Below are positions 24,426 through 30,523 of a stretch of 40,036 bases of DNA, piece by piece. Made by a program: the position numbers and the translations under genes. The DNA is taken from positions 1 to 40,036 of the forward strand of contig JASHOB010000128.1 in the NCBI GenBank assembly GCA_030041335.1, in the 5' to 3' direction. A model generated the notes under the pieces. That model did no database searches. It had not been told where the DNA came from and saw nothing but the letters and a program-made list of their open reading frames with translations. Origin of the DNA: Alphaproteobacteria bacterium (GTDB lineage Bacteria; Pseudomonadota; Alphaproteobacteria; ATCC43930; CGMCC-115725). Within the stretch, counting starts at the first letter, position 1. Every line of letters starts with the position of its first letter.

Positions 24426-25079
24426 TTACGATCCCTCTACCATCATTTCAGTCTTGTCCGCCTTACCCCCAATGTCGGTACGCACGGCGTAGCGGTCAAG
24501 CAGCCGCGACCGCGACATCCAGACTTCGATGCGGCTGTAGGATGCGCCGCGGCCGCGCAAGGCAGTGGGATTGAAGGCCCAGATCAACCCCCAGACCAAC
24601 AGGCTATCGAGCCAAGCATGAAGGAAATGGAAATGCCTCCTGTGTTCCGGCGCGACGATCTCCCAACCGAAATATTCGCAGACCCGAGTCAAGGTCAGCG
24701 GCCCGAGCCGGTCCGGAAAAGTCGGCGAGGCGGTGATCGCGACGATGTCGTGGTAATGTGGTTCCTGCTCTAAGTGATGGCTGAGGAGCGCCAGCGAGTG
24801 CCGCATCCGGCGCTTGAAGAGGTTGCCCCAGGCCGCCGTGCTTCCGGTCTGAGGAATGATGGCGAGATGTTCGTTCCATAAATGGATCTGCAGCACCGGT
24901 TCGCCGGGCCGGACGGCGTCGCCGCTGGGCATCACCACCAATCGCGGCGCCCGGCCCTGCGAGATGCGGATCAGACATTCCGGATCTTCGGTGAACTCCA
25001 AAATGCCGAGCTGCCGCCGCAATAGCGCGTCGATGCCGCGCATCGCCCAGGTGAGATTGGGACCGCTCATCGCCACCAT
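24426..25079 (-). CDS. Conserved protein, possibly YkoP-like
   Basis: A 217-residue protein. Its central region (residues 35-72: ECLIRIS, then [14 protein letters not shown]) resembles YkoP of Bacillus as I remember it, a family of unknown function found beside glycosyltransferases. One hydrophobic stretch (about 154-170, [17 protein letters not shown]) may be a membrane-associated helix. The rest is mostly basic and helical with several His residues (94-110). It is the first gene of a two-gene minus-strand unit with the phosphatase. The neighbourhood of sugar transfer and deacetylation suggests a role in envelope glycoconjugates, but no function can be assigned from sequence. Confidence 0.55.
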
Positions 25080-25335: not shown

Positions 25336-25351
25336 TCGGACTATAGTCCGA
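25336..25351. terminator. Perfect palindrome between convergent rpmG and pleD
   Basis: TCGGACTATAGTCCGA is self-complementary over all 16 nt. It begins 7 bp after the rpmG stop and spans the pleD stop codon. A hairpin would form from either transcript, so a bidirectional terminator is plausible. There is no T-run on either side, so a protein operator is the alternative. Confidence 0.5.
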
Positions 25352-26741
25352 CCTTTGCCAGGGGGCGCATGGTGGGCTGCCAATGGATCGCGCAATTGCG
25401 ACCGTTGGCCTTGGCTTCGTAGAGCGCCGCGTCGGCGCGGCTCAGGGAGGCGGTGGCGCTGTCGCCGCGTTCCTCTACGATTGCGATGCCGATACTGATC
25501 GTTACTGATATTTCACTGCCGCGTTCGGGCAAGGTTATCGGCTTGTCGGCGACAGCGTTGCGAAGGCGCTCGGCGACCATGGCGGCGATCGGCAGCGTGG
25601 TCTCGGGCATCACGACGACGAATTCCTCGCCGCCGTAGCGGGCGACCAGGTCGAAGCTGCGGACGTTGCGCGCGAGGCGGTGTGCCACCTCGCGCAGCAC
25701 CGTGTCGCCTGCAGCGTGGCCATAAGTGTCATTGATCTTCTTGAAAAAATCGACATCGAGCATCAGCACCGCGGCGCCTTGCGCACCGTCGGCAATGCGC
25801 GTCATCAACCCTTCGAGATGGGCGGTGAAGTAGCGGCGGTTGTAGAGGCCGGTGAGACCGTCGGTGAGCGCCAGCGCGAGGCTCTTCTGGTAATTCTCCT
25901 TGAGCCGATCCTGCAACCGTTTGCGACGCATTTGGGTTTGGACACGTGCGAGCAGTTCGTTCCGGTCGATGGGACGGACGATGTAATCATTGGCGCCGAG
26001 GTCGAGACCCTTTGCCAGGCGCGTCGTTTCCTCTTCGGCGGCAACCAGCAGGACTGGCGTGAACCGGCTCGCCTCGGCGCTGCGCAGCTGACCGACGAGC
26101 CGCAGCACGTCGAACGGACCGCCGAGGCCGAGGATTACCAGATCGGCAGGCCGGATCAGGCTCCGGACGAGCTCCTCGGGAGACTTTACCCTTACCGTGG
26201 CCTCGACCACCGGCCTCAGCATCTCGGTGATGCGCTGCGCCGCGGTGTCGCTGTGCTCCCACAACACCACGCGCGCCGGGGGCATGTCCTCATCGGGGTC
26301 GTGACCGTTCCCTAGTACGTTCTCGAACCGGCCCGAGACTTCCTCGCGCAGCCGCCATTCCTCCATCATGCGCTTCAGCCGCACCAGGGAGCGGACCCGC
26401 GCGAACAGGGCGACATCGTCGACCGGCTTGGTCAAGAAATCGTCGGCGCCGGCCTCGAGGCCTTTGACCCGGTCGGCAACATCGGAAAGCGCGGTCACCA
26501 TGACCACCGGAATTTCGGCGGTGGCGGGATTAGTCTTCAACCGTCTGCAAACCTCGAACCCGTCCATGCCGGGCATCATGACGTCCAGCAGCACCAGATC
26601 GGGGCGCTCGGCTCTCGCCACGTCAAGCGCCGTTTCGCCGCTCGAGGCAGTCAGCACGTGGAAATATTCGCTGGCGAGTTTCGCCTCGAGCAAACGAACG
26701 TTCACCATGACATCGTCGACGACCAGGATGCGGGCGGACAT
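25341..26741 (-). CDS. pleD: PleD, two-receiver diguanylate cyclase
   Basis: A 466-residue response regulator that makes cyclic di-GMP on phosphorylation and controls polar development in alphaproteobacteria. Receiver 1 (1-120) has acidic D9/D10, phospho-acceptor D53 and K105. Receiver 2 (about 156-275) lacks an obvious acceptor Asp (VILGLGG), as expected for the adaptor domain. The GGDEF domain (about 285-455) has the active G370-G-E-E-F374 loop and an RxxD inhibitory site (R361-D364) exactly five residues before it, so product inhibition is expected. It starts 8 bp after divK, forming the conserved divK-pleD operon. Confidence 0.97.
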   Translation of the reverse strand: MSARILVVDDVMVNVRLLEAKLASEYFHVLTASSGETALDVARAERPDLVLLDVMMPGMDGFEVCRRLKTNPATAEIPVVMVTALSDVADRVKGLEAGADDFLTKPVDDVALFARVRSLVRLKRMMEEWRLREEVSGRFENVLGNGHDPDEDMPPARVVLWEHSDTAAQRITEMLRPVVEATVRVKSPEELVRSLIRPADLVILGLGGPFDVLRLVGQLRSAEASRFTPVLLVAAEEETTRLAKGLDLGANDYIVRPIDRNELLARVQTQMRRKRLQDRLKENYQKSLALALTDGLTGLYNRRYFTAHLEGLMTRIADGAQGAAVLMLDVDFFKKINDTYGHAAGDTVLREVAHRLARNVRSFDLVARYGGEEFVVVMPETTLPIAAMVAERLRNAVADKPITLPERGSEISVTISIGIAIVEERGDSATASLSRADAALYEAKANGRNCAIHWQPTMRPLAKVGL

Positions 26742-26749
26742 ATTGCCGT

Positions 26750-27115
26750 CTAGCCCAGGAAGCGTTTGACGGTTTCGAGGAAGTGGGCGATCGAAATCGG
26801 CTTCGCGATATAGGCCTCGCAGCCGCCTTCACGGATCTTTTCCTCGTCGCCTTTCATTGCGAACGCGGTCACGGCGATGATCGGGATCGCTTTGAGGTCG
26901 TCGTCTTCCTTGATCCATTTGGCCACTTCGAGCCCCGAGACCTCCGGCAGTTGAATGTCCATCAGGATCAGGTCAGGACGATGTTGGCGCGCGAGCTGCA
27001 GCGCCTCGAGCCCGTCCTTGGTCTGCAACGTGGCGTAGCCGTGCGCCTCGAGAAGATCGTGGAAGAGCTTCATGTTGAGCTCATTGTCCTCAACAATGAG
27101 CACGCGTTTGCTCAT
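26750..27115 (-). CDS. divK: DivK, single-domain response regulator
   Basis: A 121-residue CheY-like receiver that in Caulobacter acts with DivJ, PleC and DivL to control CtrA activity and cell-cycle progression. It has the acidic pocket E9/D10, phospho-acceptor D53, the T83 switch region (AVTAFAMKG) and K105. There is no output domain. The ATG at 27115 has GAGGACGAGG upstream and gives the standard [14 protein letters not shown]; the 24-residue upstream extension is not family-like. PleD follows 8 bp downstream on the same strand. Confidence 0.97.
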
Positions 27116-27457
27116 GGCCTCGTCCTCGGAGTCGGAACGATGCGTCAGGGGCGGCGCGGGATCGTCGCGTGGCCGCAACGCTGACATTTATTCCCCCTCC
27201 CGTACGGCACCACAGGAGCCGACGCATCAATATAATCGCCAGGCTTAAGATTCGGTAACTTTCGTCATGAAACCGGCCTTTGGCAAGCACGCCGTCATGC
27301 CCGGGCCGGCAAGGGACGCGGCTTCGCCACGCGGCGCGCCGCCCGCGGCCGCTTCTCCCGCCCCCGCTCATCGGCCCTGGTTTCGCGCCTCATCCACTCG
27401 AAGTCGTGACCCTCGCGCTCCCGGCGAGCAAAGGAGATGGGCGGCAACGGCAAGCGG
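27116..27457. other. divK upstream spacer
   Basis: About 340 bp without a supported gene, holding the divK promoter region. The minus strand has a TATATT -10-like element (27234-27229), and two GANTC sites are present (27129-27133, GAGTC; 27249-27253, GATTC). A TTAA-N7-TAAC string at 27245-27259 is only a partial CtrA-type match. The part nearest the eipB-family stop (27290-27450) is GC-rich with nothing recognisable. Confidence 0.4.
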
Positions 27458-28639
27458 CTAGTCACAGCTCGGGTGGGGCAAGGGCTCGATATGATCGAGG
27501 CGAGCGTTGACGATGTAATCGCCGTAATCGAGCGCCATGTCCTGCGATACGCCATTGTCCATCAGGCGCATGCCGAGCTCGTAATCGGGCTCTTCCGCCT
27601 TGCTGTCCGCCGGGAAAAAACCAAGGCGCATGTGCCAGGACGGCCGCTCGAGGAGCGGCGATTTGATCGGGTGCTCATCGGCATTTTCCTCGCCGGGCTT
27701 GAGCGTGGGACCGATCACGGCCGAGATGGTAGTGGCATCGTCGACGGTGGTGCCGTCGAACACCCGGCGCACGACAAACCGGACACCGGCTTGGGCTTGA
27801 TCGATGAGGAAAAGCGTGTGCGCGGTGGGAAACAGGACACCCGGCCGCAACGGGATAGTGACTTGTTCGGGTTTCGAAAACGACGCGACGCCGCCCTTGC
27901 TGGTCGGCTCCAAGAGGATCTCGACCGGATTGCCGGCCGGCTTGGCGGTGGTCTCCTGCGCCGCCAGGGTTGCCATCGGACCCGCGCTCGCGGAGATCTG
28001 GACGGATGTCGCCGGAATGCCGGCATGGATCAGCTCGGCACGGACGGTATCGGCGCGGCGACGTGACAGCCGCTCGTCTTCCGCCTTGGCGCCCTTGGCG
28101 GCGGCGTTGGGATGGCTCAGCACCAAGACGTGGAAGCTTGGCTCGCGTTTGCTGGCGGCGGCCGCCTGTTCGATAGTGGCACGCGCGTCGGCGCCAAGCT
28201 TGGCGCTGCCCATATCGAAACCGAGCAGGTAGCTCTGCGGAATGTTGATATGGGCCTCGCCCTTGATTTGCTGGTCGAGTTCACCGTTGCGGGTCCGCGT
28301 CTCATTGAAGCGATAGCGCGAGCCGTCCTTTGATTCCCAGGTCACCAGGTTAGAGGTGATTTCCGTCGCATCTTCATCGGCGTATTCGAGGCGCAACCGA
28401 AAGCGCTGCTCGACGGTCCACCCACCGCAGGTTTCGCCCCACTGATAGATCATTGCGCCGTCGGCGCCGAGTACGCCGCTCGAGGTCTTGGCCGAACCCA
28501 GCGACAGAATATAGAGTGCGCGGTGGGGTTGAATGTCGGTGGCGGCGGCCGGCGCGGCCGCAAGCGCCGCCAGAGCGGCTAATGCGGTCACGCGAAGAGC
28601 GGGAAAACTCATTATCATCTCGTGTCTCGCCTTGATCAT
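27458..28639 (-). CDS. EipB-family (DUF1849) envelope protein with embedded OmpA-like domain
   Basis: A 393-residue secreted protein. The signal peptide ends near Ala33-Ala34 (ALAAAPAAA); starts at M1, M8 or M10 all keep it. Residues 36-131 match EipB/DUF1849 (HRALYILSLGSAK, GWTVEQRFRL, VTWESKDGSRYRFN), and 248-393 match the rest (FSKPEQVTIPLRPGVLFPTAHTL, FFPADSK, YELGMRLMDNGV). Between them, residues about 132-245 look like an OmpA C-terminal domain (FDMGSAKL, LSRRRADTVRAELIHAGI). EipB is a periplasmic beta-spiral protein needed for envelope integrity in Brucella; its disulfide cysteines correspond to C71 and C392 here. The OmpA GHTD motif reads S175-H-P-N178, so the peptidoglycan-contacting Asp is absent. 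Usual EipB length is nearer 280. Gene lies downstream of aspS, same strand. Confidence 0.85.
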   Translation of the reverse strand: MIKARHEMIMSFPALRVTALAALAALAAAPAAATDIQPHRALYILSLGSAKTSSGVLGADGAMIYQWGETCGGWTVEQRFRLRLEYADEDATEITSNLVTWESKDGSRYRFNETRTRNGELDQQIKGEAHINIPQSYLLGFDMGSAKLGADARATIEQAAAASKREPSFHVLVLSHPNAAAKGAKAEDERLSRRRADTVRAELIHAGIPATSVQISASAGPMATLAAQETTAKPAGNPVEILLEPTSKGGVASFSKPEQVTIPLRPGVLFPTAHTLFLIDQAQAGVRFVVRRVFDGTTVDDATTISAVIGPTLKPGEENADEHPIKSPLLERPSWHMRLGFFPADSKAEEPDYELGMRLMDNGVSQDMALDYGDYIVNARLDHIEPLPHPSCD

Positions 28640-28658: not shown

Positions 28659-30452
28659 TCATCCCCCAGCTTTACCCGCCGGCGGCGGTAGCGCTACCCG
28701 GATATGCAACTCCTTGAGCCGGTCGGGAGCCACTTCGGCAGGGGCGCCCATCATTAAATCCTGGGCCTGCTGATTGAGCGGAAACGCCGTGATCTCTCGG
28801 AGATTGGGCGTGTCGGCGAGCAGCATGACGATGCGGTCAATCCCGGGGGCCGAACCGCCGTGCGGTGGCGCGCCGTAGCGAAACGCGTCGAGAAGCCCGC
28901 CAAAACGGGCCTCGACTTCGGCCGCCGAATAGCCGGCGATGGCGAAGGCCTTGATCATCACATCGGGCCGGTGATTGCGGATTGCCCCGGAGCTGAGCTC
29001 GACGCCATTGCAAACGATGTCGTACTGGAACGCTTTGATGCGCAGCGGATCCTCGTTCTCTAGCGTCTCGAGGCCGCCTTGAGGCATCGAGAAAGGGTTG
29101 TGGCTGAACACGATCTGGTTGGTTTCCTCGTCGCGTTCGTACATTGGAAAATCGACCACCCAGCAGAACTCAAAGACGCCGTCACGCGCGACACCCAGCT
29201 CTTTGCCGAGTTTTTGGCGCGCCTGGCCGGCGAAGGTCCGGAAAGTCTTGGGCTGGCCGGCGACGAAGAACACCGCGTCATTGTCGCCGAGGCCGAGCTG
29301 CGCCCGCAATCGTTCGCTCCGTTCCGGCCCGATATTGTTGGCAATCGGCCCGGCACCCCCTTCGGCGCGATAGAAGATGTAGCCGAGACCCGGCTGGCCC
29401 TGGTCCTGCGCCCAACCATTCATTCGGTCGCAGAAGGCGCGATTGCCACCGCTCGGTGCAGGAATCGCCCACACACGCACCGCGGGGTCCTTGGCAATCA
29501 TGCCGGCGAACAGCTTGAAGCCCGAGCCCGCGAAAATCTCCGTGGCGTCCTGCATGACGATGGGGTTGCGCAAATCGGGCTTGTCGGAGCCATATTTGCT
29601 CAGCGCCTCATCATAGGCGATCCGCGGAAACGGCGGCTTGGCGACGGTGCGACCGTCGCTGAATTCCTCGAATACCCCGGCGAGGACCGGCTCGATCGCC
29701 GCAAACACGTCCTCCTGCGTCACAAACGACATTTCGAAATCGAGCTGATAGAACTCGCCGGGCGAACGGTCGGCGCGGCTGGCCTCGTCGCGGAAGCACG
29801 GCGCAATCTGGAAATAACGGTCGAACCCGGCCACCATCAGCAACTGCTTGAATTGCTGTGGCGCCTGCGGCAGCGCATAGAATTTGCCGGGATGCAAGCG
29901 GCTCGGCACCAGATAATCCCGGGCCCCTTCAGGCGAAGACGCCGTCAGAATCGGCGTCTGGAACTCGGTAAAGCCCTGCTGCAGCATGCGACGACGGAGG
30001 CTGGCAATAACGCCCGCACGCAGCACGATATTGTTGTGGACCGCCTCCCGGCGCAAGTCGAGGAAGCGGTATTTGAGCCGCATTTCCTCGGGATAATCGG
30101 CGTCCACGTTGATGGGAAACGGCAGCGTCTCCGCCGCACCGAGAAGCTCGATGCCCTCGATCTTGAGCTCGACCTCGCCGGTTGAGAGCTTAGGATTAAT
30201 CGTGTCGTCGGAGCGCCGCACGACGGCACCGGTGACGGTGACGACATTCTCGAGCCGCTGCGCGTCGACAGCCGCGAACAGCGGGCTCGATATATCGATC
30301 ACGCATTGGGTGATACCGTAATGGTCACGCAGATCGATGAAGAGAAGCTGCCCGTGATCCCGCTTTCGATGCACCCAACCCGACAACCGCGCCGTCTTGC
30401 CCTGGTCGGCGAGACGCAATTGGCCACAAGTCTGGGTTCGGTAGGGATGCAT
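28659..30452 (-). CDS. aspS: Aspartyl-tRNA synthetase (bacterial type, possibly non-discriminating)
   Basis: A 597-residue class IIb synthetase that charges tRNA-Asp. The N-terminal OB-fold anticodon-binding domain (about 8-105) contains [19 protein letters not shown]. Motif 1 and motif 2 regions are present ([51 protein letters not shown]), followed by the bacterial GAD insertion (about 295-420) and motif 3 ([14 protein letters not shown]). The ATG at 30452 gives the usual [12 protein letters not shown] start. Whether it also charges tRNA-Asn cannot be told from this window. It is divergent from rnd with 97 bp between starts. Confidence 0.97.
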
Positions 30453-30506
30453 GGCAAAAAAATTCCGGGAGTAACCCGTCTTGTCGCCTTTTCGGCCGCA
30501 AATGTC

Positions 30507-30523
30507 CAAGGGTTTTACCCTTG
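30507..30523. promoter_or_regulatory. Inverted repeat in the aspS-rnd divergent promoter region
   Basis: CAAGGG-TTTTA-CCCTTG is a perfect 6-bp inverted repeat with a 5-nt centre, in the 97-bp spacer between two divergent start codons. The position suits an operator acting on either gene. No regulator is identified. Confidence 0.35.

Follow-up and report, generated by a model that had tools for sequence, protein, structure and literature searches.

What can a wall-binding domain of the OmpA type be doing in the middle of an EipB protein, and does it still bind the wall there? The question is raised by an open reading frame at 27458..28639 on the reverse strand of the window, by which we mean the whole stretch of 40,036 nucleotides that was analysed. 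The frame encodes 393 amino acids and, judged by the reading frame and its Pfam matches, is an EipB protein with an OmpA-like domain insertion. A sequence-only reading of this DNA had proposed such an architecture, with the key aspartate of the OmpA-like module changed to asparagine, and had suggested that the insertion couples the sensing of envelope integrity to the wall. EipB and OmpA are both known families, and it is the nesting of an OmpA-like domain in EipB that appears to be new. In the literature searched, most subscription papers being outside its scope, we found no description of this nesting, of OmpA domain insertions or of OmpA-like domains that do not bind peptidoglycan, which agrees with the earlier supposition that the architecture had not been described.

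Domain organization and the insertion site

The Pfam match to EipB_like (PF08904) has an E value of 4.9e-67 and 226.5 bits against a curated cut-off of 25, and it covers the profile whole, in two pieces (2-104 and 101-249). The OmpA profile (PF00691) matches residues 141-219 of the same protein with 34.8 bits, above its curated cut-off of 27.2, and the stretch that had been marked out earlier as the module (27905..28246) scores 38.4 bits when it is taken alone. An OmpA-like domain inside an EipB/DUF1849 protein is thus what the two profiles describe, the OmpA HMM matching the insert itself. A weak Pfam match to the alanine racemase N domain over the insert stretch lies below its cut-off; the NCBIfam matches of the protein all lie below theirs and are nearly all to OmpA-type families. 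Among PDB sequences, the DUF1849 protein of Brucella (6NTR) matches residues 34-131 and 251-382, and YiaD of E. coli matches residues 131-246.

The likely start of the protein is M8 or M10, and residues 10-33 (28541..28612, on the reverse strand like the other parts of the gene) form a probable Sec signal peptide, recognised by eye, with a modelled helix of low pLDDT at residues 15-26; no lipobox cysteine was seen by eye in the signal region. The N half of EipB (residues 34-130, 28250..28540), identified by PF08904, the 6NTR match and the model, has six strands and holds C71, and the C half (residues 247-393, 27461..27901), identified by PF08904 and the 6NTR match, holds C392. Residues 131-246 (27902..28249), within about a residue of the bounds proposed earlier, form the OmpA-like insert, which is placed by PF00691, the junction alignment, the model and the fold search.

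The insertion site was located in an alignment of 38 EipB rows, 36 of them without the insert, in which L035 and L059 look like one gene; it omits rows L105-L107 as well as the duplicates L001 and L005. The second inserted protein of this alignment, L034, comes from another genome of the same genus (G002); it has the identical architecture, 83% identity and the same in-frame junction, and its own PF00691 match reaches 34 bits against the cut-off of 27.2. The stretch from GEA to GKGG counts four residues in 34 of the rows, three in two, and 115 in the 393-residue protein and L034, so the OmpA-like domain 131-246 replaces one tight turn. The proposed in-frame insertion into a loop of the EipB beta-structure accordingly holds on the evidence of Pfam, this alignment and the fold search, and the loop can now be named as a hairpin turn of three or four residues. 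The rest of the EipB core is kept: 63 of the 64 positions with a conservation of 90% or more among the rows are retained in the 393-residue protein, both cysteines included. C71 and C392, to which attention had been drawn before, are present in every one of the 38 rows and may be the disulfide cysteines of EipB.

Predicted structure

A first model, for which four EipB rows were used, had a mean pLDDT of only 47; a second, to which 22 OmpA domains from viral contigs were added, reached a mean pLDDT of 72. These viral rows were chosen by a pattern requiring GHTD and are uninformative on the conservation of its aspartate. The second model shows six strands, then a beta-alpha-beta-alpha-beta-alpha-beta unit and then the EipB C half. 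Using VIA-align, its residues 33-388 match 6NTR with Z 24.2 (rmsd 2.2, 225 aligned of 241) and its residues 128-247 match 3TD5, the A. baumannii OmpA with peptide, with Z 13.4; 9UU2 is matched with Z 13.6. The fold matches include OmpA-like domains complexed with protein partners, namely TolB/Pal and YfiB-YfiR. The insert is thus modelled as OmpA-like and not as an ordinary EipB loop. The added OmpA rows bias it toward this fold, and hence the four-row model was also searched with Foldseek: 6NTR came first (E 2.2e-13), and OmpA-like entries (5WTL, YfiB, Pal) followed from E 1.6e-3. These matches of a low-confidence model lend weak support to the fold of the insert.

How firmly might the two bodies be joined? 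In the model, the first OmpA strand (135-139) comes after the EipB strand 120-130, and the last one (239-245) precedes an EipB strand at 252-254, which gives linkers of about four and six residues. Since residues 248-272, directly after the insert, are of low confidence in the model, the rigidity of the insert rests mainly on the length of these linkers.

The mDAP pocket of the insert

Comparison with other OmpA domains shows several changes at the positions that line the mDAP site. In LVLSHPN (residues 172-178, 28106..28126), which occupies the GxTD position, the aspartate is replaced by N178 and the glycine by S175; the GHTD tetrapeptide reads SHPN (175-178) here and SHTN in L034, so that both proteins have Ser for Gly and Asn for Asp. 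The next motif, AEDERLSRRRADTV (residues 186-199, 28043..28084), has D188 in place of the Asn of YNxxLS and keeps the Arg of LSxxRA as R195 (LSRRRA), and L034 agrees at both positions. In the segment GNPVEILLEP (residues 236-245, 27905..27934), which by the comparison and the model includes the last OmpA-like strand, the Asn-Arg-Arg near the domain end has become G236-N237-P238, again Gly-Asn-Pro in L034. The Asn-Arg-Arg motif presumably takes part in mDAP binding, and we found no further support for this role in the literature. The pocket loop of the insert also carries two extra residues. The exchange of GHTD for SHPN with the Arg retained had been seen correctly from the letters; the losses of the YN Asn and of Asn-Arg-Arg, together with the exact position of the insertion in the hairpin turn, go beyond what had been noticed. 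Because the pocket is changed at several positions and not at one, ordinary wall binding is less likely than was implied before.

To how unusual a pocket do these changes amount? Among 29 better-scoring OmpA domains the Gly is present in 29, the Asp in 28, the YN Asn in 27, the three positions of Asn-Arg-Arg in 28, 29 and 23, and the LSxxRA Arg in 29; this set, drawn from seven genomes of the family, leans toward canonical, well-scoring domains. It comprises the domains in the first 30 loci obtained for 67 hits and in five other loci, some of them duplicates, after three spurious rows were dropped. When all 65 OmpA hits besides the two inserts are taken from the seven genomes, the Asp is found in 50, another residue in 13 and no aligned residue in two, with the caveat that the alignment of the low-scoring rows is unsure and many of the Asp-less ones are weak. 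The Arg of LSxxRA is present in 60 of these hits and the YN Asn in 47, and the Asn-Arg-Arg positions are kept in 47, 58 and 36; nine of the Asp-less domains retain the Arg. Asn at the Asp position was found in none of the 65. By these counts, OmpA-like domains without the Asp are not rare in these genomes, and the pocket of the insert is unusual in its letters and not unique in being altered. As 96 of the 116 insert positions are identical between the 393-residue protein and L034, the pocket letters that they share are not significant alone.

A recurring OmpA-like domain that lacks the Asp and bears the Arg was also observed in four genomes (L221, L222, L226 and L227, on G002:C406, G000:C234, G009:C137 and G010:C6); in each of them its contig also has a canonical OmpA domain, at a distance of about 2 kb.

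Distribution

The nested architecture is not common among the genomes surveyed. An EipB match is present in 33 of the 39 genomes of the family and in 37 of the 43 of the order, and in both the profile is split only in the genome of the window (G000) and in G002. Of 385 genomes sampled from the class, 231 have an EipB match, and no other EipB split at the hairpin site with an OmpA match was found among the rows read, which were the stronger hits plus those of 80 genomes and 12 genomes for weaker or multiple hits; the sample is a part of the class, and divergence beyond the reach of PF08904 would hide an inserted EipB from it. A scan of an 84,980-species collection with the 393-residue protein, which reaches close relatives only, gave three loci, one of them inserted (L034). 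The inserted genomes found are therefore two, G000 and G002, L034 being the gene of the latter.

Two further genomes of the genus have no EipB match and are uninformative on the insert, because the contig of G001 ends inside aspS and G003 is 61% complete, with neither aspS nor EipB. Partial EipB rows leave a small gap in the survey. In G062, of the same family, the match covers profile positions 3-49 only and the contig ends 16 bases on, before the insert site; the EipB on G403:C1 starts at profile position 95 and has no OmpA in it by Pfam; that on G168:C49 stops at position 103, at a contig edge; and G110 has positions 5-93 in a 246-residue frame, where, as L108, no ORF of at least 120 amino acids matched the 393-residue protein. 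Among viral contigs no relative was found by the insert alignment, the EipB alignment or an EipB DNA pattern, and a further scan of viral contigs gave one partial OmpA. Plasmids gave 13 records with a match, none covering 80% of the query; the 10 of the 13 that were listed comprise seven EipB proteins without the insert, two fragments of the EipB N half and one OmpA protein. EipB matches were seen in Azospirillum plasmid records.

Some other EipB genes of the survey have features of their own. The EipB of G088 (L106, G088:C137, 544-1560) has an acidic, unrelated insertion, about 43 residues long, which sits elsewhere, between profile positions 173 and 184. L105 (G403:C1, 1299-2921) is a diverged EipB that matches profile 94-248 only and continues at its C end for about 230 residues rich in Pro, Thr and Ala. 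In a sister genus (L097, G018:C654; 1045-1491, 1658-2503) a small stand-alone OmpA-domain gene lies after mutM and directly upstream of a second EipB paralog; its OmpA domain also lacks the GxTD Asp, and the arrangement links the OmpA and EipB families as neighbours. No OmpA match was listed on the contig of the second EipB paralog of G009. In L100 (G023:C143; 3153-4061, 4137-4757) the gene after a second EipB paralog encodes a PagL lipid A deacylase (PF09411, 54 bits).

Gene neighbourhood

By Pfam and synteny, the upstream neighbour of the inserted gene is aspS (28659..30509), and downstream lie a single-domain response regulator of the divK type (26750..27187) and a pleD-like protein with two receiver matches and GGDEF (25341..26741), all three genes being on the reverse strand. 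The names divK, for the receiver protein, and pleD, for the protein with two receiver matches and GGDEF, are those we take to be appropriate. In G009, of a sister genus, the uninserted EipB gene stands in the same order as in the window (a divergent rnd, aspS, eipB, divK, pleD). There aspS and eipB are separated by about 1.6 kb, in which a GGDEF-like match lies, and eipB and divK by about 2.3 kb. G002 has aspS, eipB, divK and pleD in the order of the window, and rnd, aspS and eipB are present on the stretch of G023 that was examined. A YkoP-domain protein (44 bits) is encoded downstream of pleD at 24426-25079 of the window, and one is also found beside pleD in G002.

Selection and origin of the insert

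The window gene and L034 were compared by the Nei-Gojobori method, the precision of which is limited here by having two sequences only and a dS near 1. Omega is 0.04 for the EipB N half (34-130), 0.14 for the insert (131-246; bootstrap 0.07-0.25) and 0.13 for the EipB C half (249-393; bootstrap 0.07-0.22), with dS about 0.8-1.5 depending on the segment. Protein identity is 92.8% in the N half, 82.8% in the insert and 82.1% in the C half. The insert is under purifying selection, and its constraint is close to that of the C half of EipB.

Where did the insert come from? The closest OmpA domains compared have 33% identity to it over the whole domain, and one local match, on G018:C174, has 42% over residues 136-227; with identities no higher than these, no donor can be named. 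A recent foreign insert was rejected, the GC3 of the insert (0.82) being near that of the EipB halves (0.73, 0.77). A tree in which the inserts form a long branch close to L075, L072 and L090, with an open fork (80/95), was not used.

Discussion

The insertion is genuine, under selection and, among the genomes surveyed, restricted to one genus. We hypothesize that it furnishes EipB with a rigid docking head, an OmpA module that probably lacks the canonical mDAP clamp; we would put the chances of this explanation at about even. EipB is a periplasmic beta-spiral protein, and in the ortholog of this genus an OmpA C-terminal-like domain has entered in frame at the tight mid-protein hairpin. The protein would be exported and do the usual work of EipB, while the very short linkers on both sides would fix the OmpA-like module rather rigidly to the EipB barrel. 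With Asp changed to Asn, Asn to Asp and Asn-Arg-Arg to Gly-Asn-Pro, the canonical clamp would be lost, and the module, as a docking head, could bind either a protein of the periplasm or a modified wall ligand, which would put EipB at a particular site of the envelope. There are precedents for protein partners: Pal binds TolB, and YfiB binds YfiR, through their OmpA-like domains. A fuller history is to our mind plausible, at somewhat below even chances: the EipB hairpin would have taken up a wall-binding OmpA module, which was then re-specialised away from mDAP, and the resulting rigid periplasmic machine of two bodies, barrel and docking head, would have gained a new ligand or protein partner and become fixed in one genus.

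Could the insert instead still bind peptidoglycan, with lowered or shifted specificity, and so hold EipB at the wall, as the sequence-only reading proposed? Its fold in the model is that of OmpA and it has kept the LSxxRA Arg, the residue whose replacement in PapS of R. rubrum abolishes mDAP binding according to the part of PMC11369160 available to us. Wall binding could thus persist through this Arg, and the Asn could make a weak contact. Yet the Asp, the YN Asn and Asn-Arg-Arg, near-invariant in the better-scoring domains, are replaced in both genomes, and the accessible portion of PMC6572160 reports both Asp and Arg of A. baumannii OmpA as critical for DAP binding, the Asp by means of the D271A variant. 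We regard such a tether as a serious rival, though the less likely one, and the loss of Asp in some of the 65 OmpA hits does not alter this, since it bears equally on the tether and on the docking head. It is also conceivable that the insert is a structural decoration, tolerated and folded and with no function of its own beyond stability, given that it is seen in one genus only and that in the EipB of G088 an unrelated insertion is tolerated in a loop elsewhere. We consider this improbable: the omega of the insert equals that of the EipB C half, although constraint by folding alone could explain a part of it. As to an assembly chimera or chance similarity, the four genomes of the genus in the collection are drafts of 70 to 500 contigs, but two separate genomes share the in-frame junction at such divergence in identity and dS, the Pfam score lies above the cut-off in both proteins, and the structure agrees. 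This leaves an artefact a negligible probability, and we take it to be ruled out by the second genome.

The insertion and the change of Asp to Asn in the sequence-only reading have stood, and the coupling of envelope sensing to the wall is conjectural: the part of PMC10787603 at hand assigns EipB of B. abortus a role in envelope integrity, leaves open whether it acts in LolB-like lipoprotein delivery, as an OMP chaperone or otherwise, and there has no wording that makes it a sensor. A natural EipB-OmpA fusion is a clue to where EipB works, and it marks a permissive site in EipB. We see here a very common wall-binding domain nested in another fold, with its ligand seemingly lost or changed, and the insert can help to work out on which residues of the OmpA-like fold wall binding depends. 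It is an unusual protein design that deserves bench testing.

Comparison with known systems sets the protein apart in several ways. With EipB of Brucella abortus (PF08904, 6NTR) it shares the core, both cysteines and the fold, whereas the Brucella eipB locus is linked to bamA, as described in the available part of PMC10787603, and that of the window is not. Uninserted EipB proteins have a hairpin turn of three or four residues where this one has an OmpA-like domain of 116. With the OmpA-like and Pal domains (PF00691; 3TD5, 1OAP, YfiB) the insert has the fold and the LSxxRA Arg in common, but it is nested in another domain, its Asp, YN Asn and Asn-Arg-Arg are replaced, and its pocket loop is longer. 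PapS of Rhodospirillum rubrum is likewise an alphaproteobacterial periplasmic protein that joins an OmpA-like domain to another domain; unlike the 393-residue protein, it is described in the accessible portion of PMC11369160 as a lipoprotein whose OmpA-like domain stands C-terminally on a linker and binds mDAP.
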